Positions 8,578 through 16,840 of a stretch of 64,000 bases of DNA are shown in pieces. Made by a program: the position numbers and the translations under genes. The notes under the pieces are model-generated. The model was not told the origin of the DNA. It searched no databases and saw nothing but the letters and a program-made list of their open reading frames with translations. The DNA is from Saprospiraceae bacterium. Its GTDB lineage: Bacteria > Bacteroidota > Bacteroidia > Chitinophagales > Saprospiraceae. Where the stretch lies: the NCBI GenBank assembly GCA_007121335.1, contig SKLY01000012.1:1-64000 (forward strand). Direction: 5' to 3'. The stretch's first letter is position 1; every line of letters begins with the position of its first letter.

Positions 8578-11500
8578 TTACTTCCATATTCGCCATACAA
8601 AGAAACTTAGCAACAGAATGAGTAAACCAAACCCAACAAGCGGAATCCATGGGGTGCCCTGTTTTTGGGGCAGTGCTTCCACGCCGCTTTGGATGAGTAC
8701 AAATCCACCCCAATAAAAAGGCGGGTATCTCTGGGCCATTTCTCTTTGAGCCTCTGCAAATGCCTCCCTGGTAGTTTTACCTGAGAACCAGTGCGAATAG
8801 AATGCGGTCATAAGTTCCCGGCTGGTCTGGTCAGGAACTTTCCACAAGCTAATGATCAGCTGATCCACGCCTGCTATTTTAAAGGCTCGTTGCAATCCCT
8901 GTACTCCGTCTGTTCTGCTGAGGTCACCAAGTCCGGTTTCGCATGCAGACAATACTGCGAGATTGCTCCCGGAAAGGTCGAGATTGGCTATCTCAAAAGC
9001 TGTGAGAATTCCATCTTCTTTATCGATTGGATTGTATCCGTTTATCCAACTGTAGTTACCACCGGCCAATATCAAACCGGATCGAAAAAGGGGATCATTA
9101 AAGGAACTTTCATCCTCCTCGGGATTGAATTCAGATTGTTGATCAGGGAAGAAAAAACCGTGAGTTGCAAGGTGAATAATCGAAGGGCTGTTACCACATA
9201 TCGATTTGAAAGCAGATTCTGTGGCATATTTCCCTGTTAGTAGGTTGGAACTACCGGACTCTAGTTTTTTATTGATTGCCTCCACTTCCTTGCGGGTGTC
9301 TGGCAGGGATTCCCAAAAGCTGCTCAATTCCCCTCTTGATACGGCCGACCTGAGTTCATTGAAGGCAAAAAATTGTTCGTCACGGTCTTCTTGAGGATCT
9401 TCGAATTTTTCTTTTAAGCCGTATTCAATGCCCCCCGCCAGCCAGGCTGTTTTATCCGTGGGAATTATCATCGATTCCATCAGGTCCGCAGTACTCCAAA
9501 GTTGTACCAGGTCGTGTCGTTCACTGAGAAATTCACCTTCCGGGGTCATCAAAGCATTGAAATTAATCTTGGACAAAAGACCGGCAGTGGAGTAATAAAT
9601 GGTTGATTTGTCAGCCAGTTTTTCCTCTAACCTTGAAAAGATAAGTTCGTATAATCCACTTTCCGGAGAGGCATAGAGCGAATTGATAAAATCCTCCTCA
9701 CTTTGATGTTCCTCTCGCGCCAATTTCTCTTTGAGTTCTGACTCTTTAAAAAGCTTGACAATTTTGGGGTTTTCGTATTCTCTCGATATCATTGCTGCAC
9801 CATAAACCACCGATTGATAGTCCAGTATACGCCTGCCTATGTTCGAATGGATAATTTCAATGGCCACCTCTCCGGGACCAAGTCTATCGCGGATTTCCTC
9901 CCAGTGTACCTGATTCATAAAGTCTTCAAATGCGACTGAAGCATTTATTAGAGAAGTTTCCATTTTCCCGGCAACAGCGATGAGACTGTCCAGGTTTCTA
10001 TCGCGTAATTCCGTGGGTTTGGTATATTCCGATGCAATGCGACTTCTCAGTGAATTCCATTCGTTAAACCGTTTTCTGAGTTCCTCATCACCCGAGTTAT
10101 TAATGCGCTGGAAAAGGTTGGACATCCGCTTGGTTGCAAGACCCCTGTTGTTAAGTGTATTTTGATATAAGACCTTGTTGATCTCTGCATCCTGGAATTC
10201 CGATTTCAACCCAAGTGTAAATAAGTCATCGAAAATCACCTGCAATCGTTGGAGTTCGTGGAGCATGTCTTTGTCTGAGCCAAGAGCTATAACATCTCTT
10301 ACAAATGATTCAATATGGGCATTGGTCAGGAGAAAGTAATCCCTGGCCTTCTCCATTTGACCATAGTTTTCATAAAGTAGTCCCAGGGACCGCAATATGG
10401 TTCCGTAAGTGGGATTATCCTTGCCCATTGATTGGTCTATGATGTCCAATGCCTGGTAGAGGTGTTCCGCGGCCAATTGGTTTTTATTCAGATTGAGATA
10501 AACAAATCCCATTTTTTTCAATCTCAATGCATAATGTAGATGGTCTTCTCCATATATTTTTTTACTCAACTCTTTGGCGTGTTTCAGAAGAGGAAGAGAT
10601 TTTTGGGGTGTCAACTGCGTATAAATATATACACTCGCTTTGTTGGTCAATACAGTAGAGTAATTGGCGCTGTTTTGTTGCTCATTCTCCTCTAAAAGTC
10701 GTAGTGATTTATTGTAGTATTCAAGTGCTTTTTTGGGCTCATTTATTTTTTTGTAGGCCCCGGCAATTCCATTTAAGGGTTTGAAGTTTTCCAGGTGGTC
10801 TTCTCCAAAGAACTTCCGGTTTAATTCCAGCGATTTATTGAAATAGCGCCGGGCATCCTCTGTGAAACCCAAATCCAAAAGCAAGGAACCCAGGCTATTC
10901 AGGGTTGAAATGCTCACAGGATGCCCTACTCCAAATTCCTCCTCTATTAATTGAAGGCATTCGCGATGCAATAGGTAGGCATTTTCAAAATACCCTAAAT
11001 TTTTGTAGAGGTTGCCCAGTCTGGTTTTAATCGATACCCTTATTCTAGGTATGCCATCCTCCAGGTTTTCATATATTGCATGTGCTGCAATTAATTGCTC
11101 CAGAGCCAGAAGGGTTTCTCCCAGCCTTCGGTGGAGATCTGCTATATTGCTGAGTAAAAGAGCATACTCGCGGTGTTCCTCACCGTAGTTGCTCCGTATA
11201 TTCTCCAATGCAAGATAGAGATTCTCTTTAGCTTTATCGAGCTCATTGTTGCTTTGATAAAAAAGTGCCAGGTTGTTCAATCGACTCCCATAACTCGAGT
11301 GTTCTTCTCCCAATGTCTCCCTGGTTTGGACTACTGCTCTCTTCAGATAACCGTAGGCCTTTTCCTGGTCTCCAAGCCTGCGGTAAAGCACTCCCATTGT
11401 GCTCAGGCTCATTCCGTAAAGTGAGTCTTTTTCTCCAAAATTGGTTTGAATGAATTCTTTGTATTCTTTATTGTGCTTTAGTGCGGTGGTATAGTCGTCC

Positions 11501-11652
11501 GTGTAAAATGCCTGTTTCACCTTGTTGTATAGTTCCTTTGCTTCAGCCCTGGCTAAACTGTCTGTTGCAGGATCGTTTTGGCCTACTGCTGTTTTCTGGC
11601 AGACAAACAATGCCCCAAGAAGCCATATGATTGACAAAGCCCTGATTCCCAT
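8578..11652 (-). CDS. Exported TPR-CHAT caspase-like peptidase with C-terminal membrane anchor
   Basis: The 1024-residue protein starts with a Sec signal peptide (about 1-25, ending AVGQ). About nine kinesin-light-chain-type TPR units of roughly 42 residues follow (about 55-450, recurring G-E-D/E-H turns such as LGEEHSSYG). A helical linker then leads to a CHAT domain (about 640-985). The CHAT catalytic dyad is visible as H831 in HLATHGFF and C904 in VLSACETGLGD. A single hydrophobic segment (about 1002-1021) and a short basic tail close the protein. CHAT domains are caspase-related cysteine peptidases. Here the TPR and peptidase parts should face the periplasm, tethered to the inner membrane. 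The gene diverges from an anti-sigma-like gene and a sigma factor gene, suggesting a signalling role. Confidence 0.9.
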   Translation of the reverse strand: MGIRALSIIWLLGALFVCQKTAVGQNDPATDSLARAEAKELYNKVKQAFYTDDYTTALKHNKEYKEFIQTNFGEKDSLYGMSLSTMGVLYRRLGDQEKAYGYLKRAVVQTRETLGEEHSSYGSRLNNLALFYQSNNELDKAKENLYLALENIRSNYGEEHREYALLLSNIADLHRRLGETLLALEQLIAAHAIYENLEDGIPRIRVSIKTRLGNLYKNLGYFENAYLLHRECLQLIEEEFGVGHPVSISTLNSLGSLLLDLGFTEDARRYFNKSLELNRKFFGEDHLENFKPLNGIAGAYKKINEPKKALEYYNKSLRLLEENEQQNSANYSTVLTNKASVYIYTQLTPQKSLPLLKHAKELSKKIYGEDHLHYALRLKKMGFVYLNLNKNQLAAEHLYQALDIIDQSMGKDNPTYGTILRSLGLLYENYGQMEKARDYFLLTNAHIESFVRDVIALGSDKDMLHELQRLQVIFDDLFTLGLKSEFQDAEINKVLYQNTLNNRGLATKRMSNLFQRINNSGDEELRKRFNEWNSLRSRIASEYTKPTELRDRNLDSLIAVAGKMETSLINASVAFEDFMNQVHWEEIRDRLGPGEVAIEIIHSNIGRRILDYQSVVYGAAMISREYENPKIVKLFKESELKEKLAREEHQSEEDFINSLYASPESGLYELIFSRLEEKLADKSTIYYSTAGLLSKINFNALMTPEGEFLSERHDLVQLWSTADLMESMIIPTDKTAWLAGGIEYGLKEKFEDPQEDRDEQFFAFNELRSAVSRGELSSFWESLPDTRKEVEAINKKLESGSSNLLTGKYATESAFKSICGNSPSIIHLATHGFFFPDQQSEFNPEEDESSFNDPLFRSGLILAGGNYSWINGYNPIDKEDGILTAFEIANLDLSGSNLAVLSACETGLGDLSRTDGVQGLQRAFKIAGVDQLIISLWKVPDQTSRELMTAFYSHWFSGKTTREAFAEAQREMAQRYPPFYWGGFVLIQSGVEALPQKQGTPWIPLVGFGLLILLLSFFVWRIWK

Positions 11653-11669
11653 TTACCGTATTTTACCCA

Positions 11670-11701
11670 TAAAGGTATTAAGTTTCAGGAAAACAGGCAA
11701 A
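11670..11701 (-). promoter_or_regulatory. Promoter of the TPR-CHAT gene
   Basis: On the minus strand a -33 box TTTG (11701-11698) and a -7 box TACCTTTA (11677-11670, one mismatch to TAnnTTTG) are separated by 20 bp, within the spacing reported for Bacteroidota primary promoters. The predicted start of transcription lies about 10 nt before the ATG at 11652, so the leader is almost absent. Confidence 0.6.
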
Positions 11702-12225
11702 TTGCTAAACTTTTACGATTTATTTGACCCGGTTTATACTTTTTTCTCCTCTTAGGCTTGATGGCACTCTCAAAATGTCTGTCAACTTTCCTGGTTTAAT
11801 GGTCCTTTTGCAGCATCTGAATTATTATGGGGATAATTTTATGGACATTCACCATCTTTTTAATCCCACTTAAGAATCAGTCAAAAGTCATGGTCATGAT
11901 CGCCACTTTCCACTCATAAATGGTGTTTTTAAGGGCTTGCTCGAAAAGTTTTTAAAAAAGTGAGTAGGGAAGGTTACTTTTATATGATATTATGTGATAT
12001 AGAGGGTGAAATACCACAAAAACTTTAAAATATTCAGTATTCCGTTTATCCATTCAAAAAATCCATTTTCTTTCAGATATTGTGGACACTTTAGAATGGA
12101 CTGTTTTGACAAGTGCCCGAATATGTAGATATTTGTGCAGTTGAAAGTTTTGGGAGGTTCTGGCTTTTTTTCACAGACCAAAACCTTAGCTGGTGGGTTT
12201 AATTCATTCTTAGCGAATTTGACAG
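11702..12225. other. Divergent intergenic region between TPR-CHAT and anti-sigma-like genes
   Basis: About 520 bp of AT-rich sequence without a credible reading frame. It is long for a divergent spacer in this window, leaving room for operator sites. I see no perfect TAnnTTTG box for the plus-strand gene, so that promoter may be read by an alternative sigma factor, possibly the one encoded at 13287. No tRNA, terminator or strong inverted repeat stands out. Confidence 0.4.
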
Positions 12226-12963
12226 ATGGACTTTGACAAAGATTTTGATGTAGAGAAATTTGACAGGTATTATTCGGGAGAAATGACCGGTGATGAGCGC
12301 CTGGAAATGGAAAAGGAACTATCCTCCGACCCTCTGATGCGTGAAAACTACAAGACTTTCATTGAAACAATGGATGCCCTGGCCCATGAATCTTTGAAGA
12401 AAAAGATTGCCGCCAATCCCGAATTTCGTGCTGCCATCCAAAAGGGTTTGCAAAAGCCGAATGACCATAGCAAGTTCAACAAACTGGCTCTTTTAGGATT
12501 GTTGATATTACTGGTAGCTGGTCTATCCATATTCGCATATTTTTTATTCTTTCAACCCGACCTTCAATCCCCAAATGAACAAAAAATTCAGCAACAGGAG
12601 ATAGCCGCCCTGAGCATGGACCGGGATCAGCGTAATGCAATGGTCAGGTATTTTATTGAGAATGCTGTTTTGCCTGACTCACGCCTGAGAGGTATGGAAT
12701 CAGAAACAAGCCAGGGAGAAATTTCACTTGAGTTAGCCGAATGCAGGGATCTGTTGCTCGAAACACATTATGAAAGGGCGATGGATTGTATTGATGATCT
12801 GGCCACCCAAAATGATGAATCCAGATGGCTCTTTGCCCTTGCCCTTTTTGGAAACGATGAGCTGGAGGAAGCACTGGAGAGAATGGAAGGTATAAAATCC
12901 GACCGAACAAGCCGGTTTTTCTCATATGCAGACTTTTTCCTGGACTCCATTGACACCAATTGA
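12226..12963 (+). CDS. Single-pass membrane protein, putative anti-sigma factor
   Basis: The 245-residue protein has an N-terminal cytoplasmic part (1-84) with the motif FDRYYSGEMTGDERLEMEKE, then SSDPLMRENY. This resembles the start of many Bacteroidota anti-sigma proteins, although the zinc-binding HxxxCxxC of ZAS domains is absent. One transmembrane segment (87-109) follows, then a periplasmic part of about 135 residues. The last 80 residues look like degenerate TPR-type helices (LAECRDLLLETHYERAMDCI and WLFALALFGNDELEEALERM). The sigma-factor gene lies downstream on the same strand, and the TPR-CHAT peptidase is divergent upstream. An anti-sigma role is inference. A TPR scaffold partner for the peptidase is the alternative. 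Confidence 0.65.
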   Translation: MDFDKDFDVEKFDRYYSGEMTGDERLEMEKELSSDPLMRENYKTFIETMDALAHESLKKKIAANPEFRAAIQKGLQKPNDHSKFNKLALLGLLILLVAGLSIFAYFLFFQPDLQSPNEQKIQQQEIAALSMDRDQRNAMVRYFIENAVLPDSRLRGMESETSQGEISLELAECRDLLLETHYERAMDCIDDLATQNDESRWLFALALFGNDELEEALERMEGIKSDRTSRFFSYADFFLDSIDTN

Positions 12964-13286
12964 CAATCATTTTTCTTCCTAAGCACCATACAATTCAAAA
13001 TTTGTCACCTATCTCATGCCTTGGCCATTCCTTTATGCCTCGCAATCAGATTCTCTGTGGATTCTCCAATTTCGATTTCCTGAAACACCCAAAACCTGAA
13101 AAGTCTATCATTTTAGGCTACATACAATGAGAACTAATGAACGGAATCAATAAGGCTAAACTTTCTATAAAAGTTGCAGATTGTTACCGCCCTTTTCAAC
13201 AGTCAGGCTATATTGGCCTTTTCAAACAACCATAGTCTGCTTTTTTGTGGAATCCAGTGGCCTTCACAACCGAGCGTGTTTTAAAT
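12964..13286 (+). other. Spacer between anti-sigma-like and sigma genes
   Basis: A 323-bp AT-rich interval with no coding potential I can support. Its length suggests that the sigma gene has its own promoter, but I could not find a good -33/-7 pair. There is no clear terminator after 12963 either, so partial readthrough from the upstream gene remains possible. Confidence 0.35.
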
Positions 13287-13859
13287 ATGTCACCAAATAA
13301 GGAAATACTAAAGGGCATTATTGACGGCGACAGCCAAATAATAAGCCGGTTGCTAAAGCAACTCACGTATTCCGTTGGCAATTCCCTTAAGAACAGTGGA
13401 TTGAACGATGAAGATATTGAAGAGGCTGTAATGGATGCGATGGTCATATTCATCAAAAAAGTAAAAAGCGGGGAGTTTAAAGACCAGGGAATCCCTGTGA
13501 TGTCATATCTGGCCAAAGTAGCCAGATACCGCGGAAACTACTACTACAGGAAAAAAGCCGCAAATCTCGAATTCCCTTCTGATGCCATAGATAAGTGGAA
13601 AAAAGAGGAGGAAGTTACACCGGAGACCTGGGACCATGTAAAGAGGGGACTTGAGGAACTACCCGCTTCGCAAAGACGCCTTCTGGAGCTGACCTATATC
13701 GAGGGATACCGAGACAAAGAAATAATAGAAGCAGGCCTCTCCGAATACTCTACCATTTCCTCATTAAAATCCCAGAGGTACAAGGCCCTACGAAACCTCA
13801 GCAAGATTGTTCACAGGGCTAGAAAAGGTATTGGAGAAAATGTAAGAGATAAAAAATAA
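13287..13859 (+). CDS. ECF-like sigma-70 family RNA polymerase sigma factor
   Basis: The ATG at 13287 (MSPNKE) gives a 190-residue protein. The longer frame from 13245 adds a non-conserved extension. Region 2 is helical (LSKQLTYSV-like: LLKQLTYSVGNSLKNSGLNDEDIEEAVMD is read in short pieces as LLKQLTYSVG then NDEDIEEAVMDAM), with a YRGNYYYRKKA stretch in the DNA-melting area. Region 4 is seen as ELPASQRRLLELTYIEGY, then an HTH-like SSLKSQRYKALRNLSKI that would read the -35 element. It is a divergent member, without the canonical DxxQ motif. Position next to an anti-sigma-like membrane protein and a TPR-CHAT peptidase suggests control by an envelope signal. Confidence 0.82.
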   Translation: MSPNKEILKGIIDGDSQIISRLLKQLTYSVGNSLKNSGLNDEDIEEAVMDAMVIFIKKVKSGEFKDQGIPVMSYLAKVARYRGNYYYRKKAANLEFPSDAIDKWKKEEEVTPETWDHVKRGLEELPASQRRLLELTYIEGYRDKEIIEAGLSEYSTISSLKSQRYKALRNLSKIVHRARKGIGENVRDKK

Positions 13860-14185: not shown

Positions 14186-16840
14186 ATGATTGAAAGTGGA
14201 ATGAGTAGCAGATACAAAGCACTGCGTGTTACTTTTCTCGCAATGGTGAGTTGTATCGCATTAACATTCGGTGCAAATGCTCAGCTCGATCGGTTAGATA
14301 CCCTTTCTTTTGGTGATTTTTCATCAATCGAAGAGGTTGAAATCGGTGGGATCACCATCACCGGGGCCGAGTACTCCGATCACAATGCCATACTTGGTGT
14401 TACAGGATTGCAGGTGGGCCAGCAAATACGCATTCCGGGCAGGGCAATCACCAACGCTATTGAAAAGCTCTGGGAACTCAACTTATTTACTGATATTTCT
14501 GTAGTGCAAACCCAAAGGGTGGGTGAGGTGGTTTTCCTCGAAATTCAGTTGAAGGAGATGCCGAGGTTCAGCAGACATTCCTATCAGGGTGTCAGGCGCT
14601 CATACCACGACGATATGAATGATAAGGTTTCCAGGCATTTGCGAAGGGGAAGCATCGTAACAGAAAACGCCCTTAAAAATGTGGAACGAGACCTACTTAA
14701 ATTTTTGAGGGAAAAAGGTTATCTGGATGCGGAATTGGAGATCGTAAAGAAAGAAGATGACCGAATGTCGAATGCCGTTGAGCTTCAGTTTGTAGTGGAT
14801 CTGCAAGAAAAGGTGAGAATTCGGAACATTAACTTTGAGGGCAATGAGGTGGTGCGTGATAGAAGGTTGAGAAGGGAGTTGGATGACACTAAAGAAAGAC
14901 GACGACTATTTGCCCGTTCCAGATTTGACAGAGAGCTCTATCAGGAAGACCTGAAAAATGTTATTAGATATTACAGGACTCTCGGCTACAGCGATGCCAC
15001 GATTGTGGGAGACTCAATCTGGCGCGATGACAGGGGAATGCTAAATATATTGGTTACCATCGATGAGGGCAACAAGTATTTCATAAGAGACATTACCTGG
15101 TCCGGTAACACTTTATATGACGACAGAACCTTGTCCTCTGTTCTCGGAATCAATAGAGGGGATCCCTACAATCCCGAACTCATGGACAGGCGGCTCAACT
15201 TTTCAATGGATGGCCGGGATGTCAATTCACTCTATATGGATGATGGATATCTGTTTTTCAATGTGACTCCCATTGAGGTGGCGATTGAAAACGATTCCAT
15301 AGATTTTGAAATGCGGATTTTTGAAGGCCCGCAGGCCAGTATCGACCGGGTGGTAATCCGGGGAAATGACAGAACGCATGAGCATGTGGTTCGCCGTGAG
15401 CTCAGGACAAGACCGGGACGCATTTTCAGTCGCTCTGACATCATTCGATCCCAGCGGGAAATAATCAATCTCGGTTATTTTGACGGAGAAAACATGGATA
15501 TTCAGACGCCGGTCAATCCCCAGCGGTACACTGTCGATATTGAATACGACCTTCAGGAAAGACCATCAGATCAGGTGGAACTCTCAGCAGGTTGGGGAGG
15601 TTTTAGCGGACTTATTGGTACGGTTGGTGTCCAATTTAACAATTTTTCCGTGCGCAACCTTTTCAATGGAAGCGCCTGGCGACCATTGCCTCAGGGAGAT
15701 GGACAGAGGCTGTCTCTGAGGGCACAGACAAATGGCCGCTTTTTCCAATCCTACAACCTCAGTTTTACAGAGCCATGGCTTGGAGGTAGAAAACCGACTT
15801 CTTTCTCCGTTGGTGGTTACTATACAAAGTTCACCAGTTTATTCAGTAGTCAGCAAGCGGCAGGTTCCAGAGGTTCACTTGCCATTGCGCGTGGCTTCGT
15901 GGGAATCGGAACCCGCTTGAGTTGGCCGGATGACAACTTCGTATTCAACTCGAGAATTAACATTGAAAACATTCGATTGAATGATTACGGATCATTCTTT
16001 TCCTTTGAGGGCAGACCGGTTGACTTTGGCAGTTACAACAACTTCTCACTCAACCTAACCCTTGCCCGAACCTCAATCAGTGACCCTATTTTCCCCCGCT
16101 CCGGTTCAAGGTTGTCACTCAGCCTCCAGATTACTCCGCCATATTCACTATTTAAAAGTGGTAGATTTTGGGAGCTTGGTCCTGATGAAAGAAAGGCTCT
16201 CATCGACAGAGAAAACGATGGCAGAGATGTGCCGCTAAATAAGCAGCAAGAAGCAGAACTTATTGGAAGACAAGAGCTGGCTGACAGGTTCAAGTTTTTG
16301 GAATACCACAAATGGAGAATTGACTTCGAGTGGTTTACTCCCATTGTCGGTGATTTGATTTTCAGGACTTCCGCAAAAATGGGATACCTGGGTTATTTCA
16401 GCAGTACAGTTGGTCTTTCGCCTTTTGAGCGCTTTGAACTCGGAGGTGATGGACTCAACAATCAGCAAACTGGTATCACCGGTAAAGATATTATCAGGCT
16501 GAGGGGCTACGAGGTAAGTGATATCCGCAGAAATTTGGTGGATGATGCCTCTATTTTCAATAAGTTTGAAATGGAACTGAGATACCCTATTTCCACCAAC
16601 CCCAGTTCGACCATTTATGTGCTTGGATTTCTGGAGGGTGGTAATGCATGGAATAGTTTCAGCGATTACAATCCCTTCGATCTGAGAAGGTCTGCAGGAG
16701 TTGGACTGAGGGTGTTTTTGCCAATGTTCGGGCTTCTTGGGTTTGACTATGGATTCGGATTCGACAAACCTAATTTGCGCGGATCGTCATGGTCAGAATA
16801 CGGTACATTCAGCTTGATCCTCGGATTTGAACCTGATTAA
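14186..16840 (+). CDS. bamA: Outer membrane protein assembly factor BamA (Omp85)
   Basis: The 884-residue protein carries a signal peptide (about 1-32, ending GANAQ), then a series of POTRA domains (about 45-450) recognisable from repeats such as INFEGNEVVRDRRLRRELDD and VVIRGNDRTHEHVVRRELRT. A 16-strand barrel domain (about 455-884) follows. The barrel contains the VRGY-like loop-6 signature as RLRGYEVSD and ends with a hydrophobic strand FSLILGF followed by EPD. BamA folds and inserts beta-barrel proteins in the outer membrane. The gene appears monocistronic. A TamA-like or second BamA paralogue role cannot be excluded, but five POTRA-like units favour BamA. Confidence 0.93.
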   Translation: MIESGMSSRYKALRVTFLAMVSCIALTFGANAQLDRLDTLSFGDFSSIEEVEIGGITITGAEYSDHNAILGVTGLQVGQQIRIPGRAITNAIEKLWELNLFTDISVVQTQRVGEVVFLEIQLKEMPRFSRHSYQGVRRSYHDDMNDKVSRHLRRGSIVTENALKNVERDLLKFLREKGYLDAELEIVKKEDDRMSNAVELQFVVDLQEKVRIRNINFEGNEVVRDRRLRRELDDTKERRRLFARSRFDRELYQEDLKNVIRYYRTLGYSDATIVGDSIWRDDRGMLNILVTIDEGNKYFIRDITWSGNTLYDDRTLSSVLGINRGDPYNPELMDRRLNFSMDGRDVNSLYMDDGYLFFNVTPIEVAIENDSIDFEMRIFEGPQASIDRVVIRGNDRTHEHVVRRELRTRPGRIFSRSDIIRSQREIINLGYFDGENMDIQTPVNPQRYTVDIEYDLQERPSDQVELSAGWGGFSGLIGTVGVQFNNFSVRNLFNGSAWRPLPQGDGQRLSLRAQTNGRFFQSYNLSFTEPWLGGRKPTSFSVGGYYTKFTSLFSSQQAAGSRGSLAIARGFVGIGTRLSWPDDNFVFNSRINIENIRLNDYGSFFSFEGRPVDFGSYNNFSLNLTLARTSISDPIFPRSGSRLSLSLQITPPYSLFKSGRFWELGPDERKALIDRENDGRDVPLNKQQEAELIGRQELADRFKFLEYHKWRIDFEWFTPIVGDLIFRTSAKMGYLGYFSSTVGLSPFERFELGGDGLNNQQTGITGKDIIRLRGYEVSDIRRNLVDDASIFNKFEMELRYPISTNPSSTIYVLGFLEGGNAWNSFSDYNPFDLRRSAGVGLRVFLPMFGLLGFDYGFGFDKPNLRGSSWSEYGTFSLILGFEPD

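Follow-up and report, generated by a model that had tools for sequence, protein, structure and literature searches.

An ECF sigma factor, a single-pass anti-sigma factor and a TPR-CHAT protein as a co-inherited trio in Saprospiraceae and other Bacteroidota: a candidate periplasmic protease switch

We examined three genes in a 64,000-nucleotide stretch of DNA ("the window"; positions 1 to 64,000 of contig SKLY01000012.1) from the draft genome of a Saprospiraceae bacterium (assembly GCA_007121335.1; genome G000, 3.1 Mb, 93% complete; window contig G000:C237). They encode a TPR-CHAT peptidase-like protein of 1024 amino acids (8578..11652, minus strand), a predicted single-pass membrane anti-sigma factor of 245 amino acids (12226..12963, plus strand) and an extracytoplasmic function (ECF)-type sigma factor of 190 amino acids (13287..13859, plus strand). 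Comparison across related genomes shows that an ECF sigma factor and its dedicated, putative single-pass anti-sigma factor form a unit that is passed on together with a TPR-CHAT protein retaining an intact catalytic dyad, and a real partnership of the three is, on this genomic evidence, near certain. We also lean slightly towards the view that they constitute a three-protein transmembrane module, in which the activated CHAT protein would cut the anti-sigma factor and the site-2 protease RseP would then free the sigma factor. Whether the CHAT protein cuts the anti-sigma factor is, taken by itself, an even call.

Co-occurrence and co-inheritance of the three genes

CHAT genes were common in 61 relatives of the host, with up to 27 per genome, and the host has three. 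Forty CHAT neighbourhoods were sampled blind to their neighbours, except those from the window's own genus, and the 38 Saprospirales loci lying outside that genus were used for the sigma-neighbour test. An ECF sigma gene lay within 1.5 kb of the CHAT gene in 16 of these 38 loci, compared with 1.96 expected from an upper-bound estimate of sigma gene density (P ~1e-11). A profile built from 21 single-pass partners (A1) was searched back in the same genomes, and 26 of the 79 held-out matches had a CHAT gene no more than 2 kb away, where 1.42 were expected (P 3e-26). When a sample was drawn evenly from Bacteroidota, 12 of 40 CHAT loci had an anti-sigma gene within 2 kb, and these 12 came from a number of families and from at least two classes. 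Co-occurrence beyond chance, which the sequence-only reading of this locus had proposed as a check, was therefore strongly borne out. At L046, L056 and L065 the sigma, anti-sigma and CHAT genes form a single run in that order, overlapping or closely spaced. Saprospiraceae, unclassified Bacteroidia and Splendidivirga corallicola (the culturable strain BMA10, L109) are among the named carriers of the trio.

The three proteins also share their history. Among 45 trios, the CHAT distance matrix correlated with that of the sigma factors (r 0.586) and with that of the anti-sigma factors (r 0.511) nearly as closely as the sigma and anti-sigma matrices correlated with each other (0.566). None of 5000 within-genome shuffles reached the observed r for the CHAT pairs, and the trees co-varied even among paralogues of a single genome. 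Sigma-linked CHAT proteins were clustered on the CHAT tree, requiring 23 changes against 37.8 with shuffled labels.

Of 44 CHAT-bearing genomes, 37 gave a strong anti-sigma match, as against none of 17 CHAT-free genomes; outside the window's own family the figures were 5 of 9 and 0 of 15 (P 0.003). A renewed search of 16 CHAT-free genomes yielded a full-length anti-sigma member in none, and the matches seen there cover only the TPRs of other proteins or, in G052, the N-terminal part only. Presence and absence were used instead of the genome-wide correlation of CHAT and anti-sigma counts (partial r 0.22), in which genome size and cross-hits to TPRs act as confounders. In small genomes the counts of CHAT and anti-sigma genes were nearly one to one (3/3 in G000, 2/2 in G001 and G002, 1/1 in G003, G012 and G050), and this held for unlinked genes too. 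Two sister genomes, G040 and G056, had 1/1 and 0/0, and the window's own CHAT/anti-sigma pair was jointly absent from G003 and G004. The co-occurrence of unlinked genes provides the best argument against mere hitch-hiking.

Some loci depart from the simple arrangement. The host carries a second trio (L005:10812-15460, on G000:C265) in convergent order, with sigma and anti-sigma genes overlapping by four bases. Its third CHAT gene (G000:C175) is unlinked from a third sigma/anti-sigma pair (G000:C252:43156-44483), and G001-G004 have a CHAT gene of about 940 codons and an anti-sigma gene of about 273 codons that are likewise unlinked; these unlinked genes of G000-G004 suggest a second pair acting in trans. 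At L016:7921-15127 sigma/anti-sigma pairs lie on both flanks of one CHAT gene, and at L165 (G070, Bacteroidota) at least three CHAT genes lie within a few kb with no sigma neighbour.

Features of the three predicted proteins

The CHAT domain of the window protein (residues 667-987; 8692..9654, minus strand) matched PF12770 with an E value of 1.8e-54, passing the cut-off, and contains the His-Cys dyad of CHAT peptidases at His831 (9160..9162) and Cys904 (8941..8943), both on the minus strand. The two residues were invariant in alignments A2, A3 and A5, across 21 sigma-linked CHAT proteins, and again when the window protein was aligned with 39 other relatives. Several TPR families were matched N-terminal to the CHAT domain using Pfam, and hydropathy indicated an N-terminal signal as well as a C-terminal transmembrane anchor at about residues 1002-1020 (8593..8649, minus strand; helix 1005-1023 in the structural model), followed by a short basic tail, RIWK. 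The sequence-only reading had described just such an exported protein with an intact dyad and a C-terminal anchor. The predicted structure was good (predicted local distance difference test, pLDDT, 84.6; predicted template modelling score, pTM, 0.80), and its top PDB matches by Foldseek were DdvA (8RW5, 8ROT), Csx29 (8EEY) and human separase; apart from separase, its structural neighbours are thus precisely the two CHAT-sigma systems already described.

The anti-sigma factor begins with a predicted cytoplasmic domain (12226..12450, plus strand; model helices 9-75) having the motif IxxYLxGxLSxxExxxFExxLxxDxxL and no Cys cluster; residues 1-88 contain no Cys at all. Its sole transmembrane segment, residues 89-107 (12490..12546, plus strand; hydropathy, model helix 85-108), is basic on the N-terminal side and acidic on the C-terminal side. 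A flexible juxtamembrane loop of residues 151-160 (12676..12705, plus strand; pLDDT below 50) leads to periplasmic TPR-like helices (12712..12960, plus strand), which are identified as such from Pfam TPR matches in relatives and from Foldseek TPR matches with a probability of about 0.9 but E values above 0.3. The model (pLDDT 80.4) accordingly consists of an N-terminal helical bundle, a transmembrane helix and TPR-like helices. Since the export signal and C-terminal anchor should place the bulk of the CHAT protein in the periplasm, we deduce from the predicted topologies that it and the TPR part of the anti-sigma factor lie on the same side, outside the inner membrane, as the sequence-only reading had supposed.

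Domain matches to known anti-sigma factors were weak. The N-terminus of the window protein matched an NCBIfam 'anti-sigma factor' model at 6.8e-6, below the cut-off; NF052375 was matched by 12 of 21 relatives (E below 0.001), with the window member under its curated cut-off; and no credible anti-sigma domain match was found among solved structures by profile or by fold. The genomic pairing is much more regular. The 42 family members drawn from 40 further loci are all single-pass, and 41 of them are immediately preceded by a sigma gene on the same strand, the lone exception being at a contig end; 40 of the 41 pairs are no more than 60 bp apart or overlap. This order, the single transmembrane segment and the weak matches together indicate that the partner is an anti-sigma factor, in agreement with the anti-sigma-like N-terminus noted earlier from sequence. 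Pairing with an ECF sigma gene and one transmembrane segment after a short cytoplasmic domain place it with the class I membrane anti-sigma factors, although the gene order of such pairs is reversed in the window itself. Four CHAT-linked anti-sigma factors (L035:10250-11140, L057:13729-14559, L058:10292-11116 and L063:208-1083) have a periplasmic part that looks beta-rich rather than TPR. At L025:5911-10301 a sigma gene, the gene of a membrane protein bearing the Cys/His cluster HIHQCTDCH and a CHAT gene follow in one run; this membrane protein resembles a zinc-type anti-sigma factor and may be closer to the DdvA type.

The window sigma factor alone gave a weak ECF match (TIGR02937, 3.2e-8, below the curated cut-off), whereas 17 of 18 members of its family matched TIGR02937 and the family profile matched the structures of SigH, SigW and SigE at 1e-15 to 1e-19. 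Similarity to sigma regions 2 and 4 identifies it as an ECF sigma factor, which sharpens the earlier assignment to the sigma-70 family; the start given then, TTG at 13245, has been corrected, the gene most likely starting at ATG 13287. The host genome also encodes a homologue of the site-2 protease RseP (TIGR00054, E 5.7e-66).

Comparison with known systems

One of the two closest known systems is DdvA/DdvS of Myxococcus xanthus, in which, as in the window system, TPR-CHAT goes together with a membrane-bound anti-sigma factor for an ECF sigma factor. DdvA was the first Foldseek match of the window CHAT model (cryo-EM entries 8ROT, 8RW5; 4.7e-13) and its best PDB profile match (1.3e-8). In DdvA, however, the anti-sigma and TPR-CHAT parts form one polypeptide, whereas in the window they are encoded by two genes, so that the window system is not itself of the DdvA type; no clear DdvA-like fusion was seen among 172 CHAT frames inspected for an early transmembrane segment. 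A 2024 Science Advances paper reportedly places the TPR-CHAT part of DdvA in the periplasm, with an incomplete His-Cys active site, and proposes autoproteolysis followed by RseP. The anti-sigma domain of DdvA is reported to bind zinc via a CHCC set. The window proteins differ in both the dyad, which is intact, and the anti-sigma N-terminus, which has no cysteine. By 2015 DdvA had been described as the anti-sigma partner of DdvS, and the signal that inactivates it was then still to be found (PMC4374960). DdvS drives an antiphage island (PMC12288465); in contrast, no defence genes were found among the window neighbours checked.

In type III-E CRISPR systems the TPR-CHAT protein Csx29 cleaves Csx30 and so relieves CASP-sigma (PMC10028731). 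This Craspase, the other of the two closest systems, resembles the window system in having a TPR-CHAT peptidase, a sigma inhibitor and an ECF-type sigma factor (Foldseek 8EEY, 1.3e-12), but there target RNA activates the protease via Cas7-11, while in the window the inhibitor spans the membrane. No match to RAMP (PF03787; gRAMP/Cas7-11) was found in the 93% complete host genome and no Csx30 among the profile matches, so the window system is not a type III-E member. The sequence-only reading had proposed a CRISPR-independent version of this logic across the inner membrane; the independence from CRISPR stands, but such a relative had already been described in DdvA. The window system is best described as a split counterpart of DdvA, with two proteins, an intact dyad, a Cys-free cytoplasmic domain and no CRISPR link. 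No description of the split sigma/anti-sigma/CHAT trio was found in the literature searched, subscription papers lying outside its reach.

The RseA/DegS/RseP pathway shares with the window the single-pass anti-sigma factor, the ECF sigma factor and an RseP homologue, but DegS is a PDZ serine protease, whereas the proposed site-1 protease here would be a caspase-fold cysteine peptidase with TPRs. Separase likewise combines a helical-repeat scaffold with a CHAT-related peptidase (Foldseek 1.5e-11), but the window CHAT protein lacks, at the equivalent spacing, the Asp with which separase reads a P1 arginine.

A candidate cleavage site

Csx30 is cleaved within a small flexible loop (PMC10028731), and the position of the juxtamembrane loop of the window anti-sigma factor fits what would be expected of a cleavage loop. 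Within it we propose R155-G156 as the candidate site. In 64 family members the position of R155 is occupied by R in 48, K in 6 and M in 4, and the next residue is in most cases G, S, D or N. R155-G156 is retained in the four orthologues of the window protein, even at 28% identity. The automatic alignment placed R133 in the Arg column; R155 was preferred because of its distance from the first TPR helix and because the four orthologues all share it. In the second host trio (L005) the anti-sigma loop has Met instead of Arg, and Glu replaces D941 in the CHAT protein. This conserved Asp, at Trp+4, was considered as a separase-like S1 residue and withdrawn, since the published TPR-CHAT spacing places the residue that reads a P1 Arg in separase at Trp+8 (PMC9729208). 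Covariation of the specificity position with the P1 residue of the anti-sigma factor could be sought in just two variant loci (L005 and L038), which was too few.

Proposed mechanism and alternative explanations

In the proposed module the anti-sigma factor would, at rest, hold the sigma factor by means of its cytoplasmic domain. A ligand or a damaged envelope component would act on the TPRs of the CHAT protein, much as target RNA activates Csx29, and the activated CHAT protein would cut the flexible loop of the anti-sigma factor just outside the membrane, perhaps at R155-G156. RseP and cytoplasmic proteases would then complete the processing, and the sigma factor would be released. Several observations weigh against this proposal. 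Roughly half of the CHAT genes sampled lack a sigma neighbour, so that there must be other functions or pairs that act without being linked. Anti-sigma factors with no CHAT gene nearby carry the Arg motif just as often, and by the published spacing (PMC9729208) the equivalent of separase D2151, which reads the P1 Arg, is R945 in the window protein, so that arginine specificity is not predicted. In the window's genus, moreover, the anti-sigma gene precedes the sigma gene with a 320-bp gap, and the two are thus not translationally coupled.

An alternative that we consider rather unlikely, though deserving attention, reverses the flow of information: the sigma/anti-sigma pair would sense the envelope by other means and induce the CHAT protein as an effector protease. 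Neighbours of ECF sigma genes are often their targets, in many loci the CHAT gene diverges from the pair or converges on it instead of belonging to its operon, and co-inheritance of a target would likewise yield tree co-variation. In the fusion DdvA, however, TPR-CHAT is part of the anti-sigma factor itself, on the input side, the type III-E CHAT protein acts upstream of the sigma factor, and the unlinked one-to-one pairs point to a dedicated partner and not to one among many targets. Somewhat less probable still is regulation by binding alone, in which TPR-TPR contact would shield or expose the anti-sigma factor to a different site-1 protease. Both partners have TPRs on the same side, several linked CHAT proteins lack a predicted C-terminal anchor, and partner proteins in cell-surface signalling are reported to be able to shield an anti-sigma factor from proteolysis (PMC11637429); yet a pure scaffold would not need the His and Cys that are invariant in all aligned CHAT proteins. 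That the three are functionally unrelated neighbours, merely co-inherited, is close to refuted: linkage alone can bring trees into agreement, but the neighbour enrichment (P 1e-10 to 1e-26), the changing gene order and orientation, the unlinked co-occurrence and the joint absence all argue against it.

The window locus and its setting

The TPR-CHAT gene is divergent from the anti-sigma gene, and the sigma gene follows the latter after the gap of about 320 bp. This order is shared with the orthologous loci of G002, G207 and G001 and is conserved even at 35% (CHAT) and 28% (single-pass protein) identity. All three genes are under purifying selection, with ratios of nonsynonymous to synonymous substitution (dN/dS) between G000 and G002 of 0.115 for TPR-CHAT and 0.233 and 0.309 for the other two. 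No -7 box (TAnnTTTG) occurs upstream of any of the three genes, with 0.17 expected per 573 bp. Its absence before the anti-sigma gene, noted earlier as fitting autoregulation, is therefore correct but uninformative. The remaining window genes examined using Pfam have housekeeping or envelope functions. A BamA-like gene (14186-16840) lies directly 3' of the sigma gene, as it does in G002 and G207 but not in G001, and could be a target or a chance neighbour.

Implications

CHAT genes are abundant in Bacteroidota, mostly without an assigned role, and the trio gives many of them a function that can be put to the test, along with a candidate substrate; the one-to-one CHAT/anti-sigma pairs make the substrate question directly testable. 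It is tempting to speculate, although we hold this only tentatively, that Bacteroidota contain a large family of paralogous periplasmic caspase-like site-1 proteases, each with its own membrane anti-sigma factor and ECF sigma factor, which would serve them generally for envelope signalling, and that the Csx29 trio and the fused DdvA are descendants or parallel recruitments of this design, itself independent of CRISPR. The trio suggests that the type III-E protease-sigma trio may be a CRISPR adaptation of an older switch. If the proposed mechanism is true, these proteins would represent a family of caspase-fold site-1 proteases acting outside the cytoplasm.

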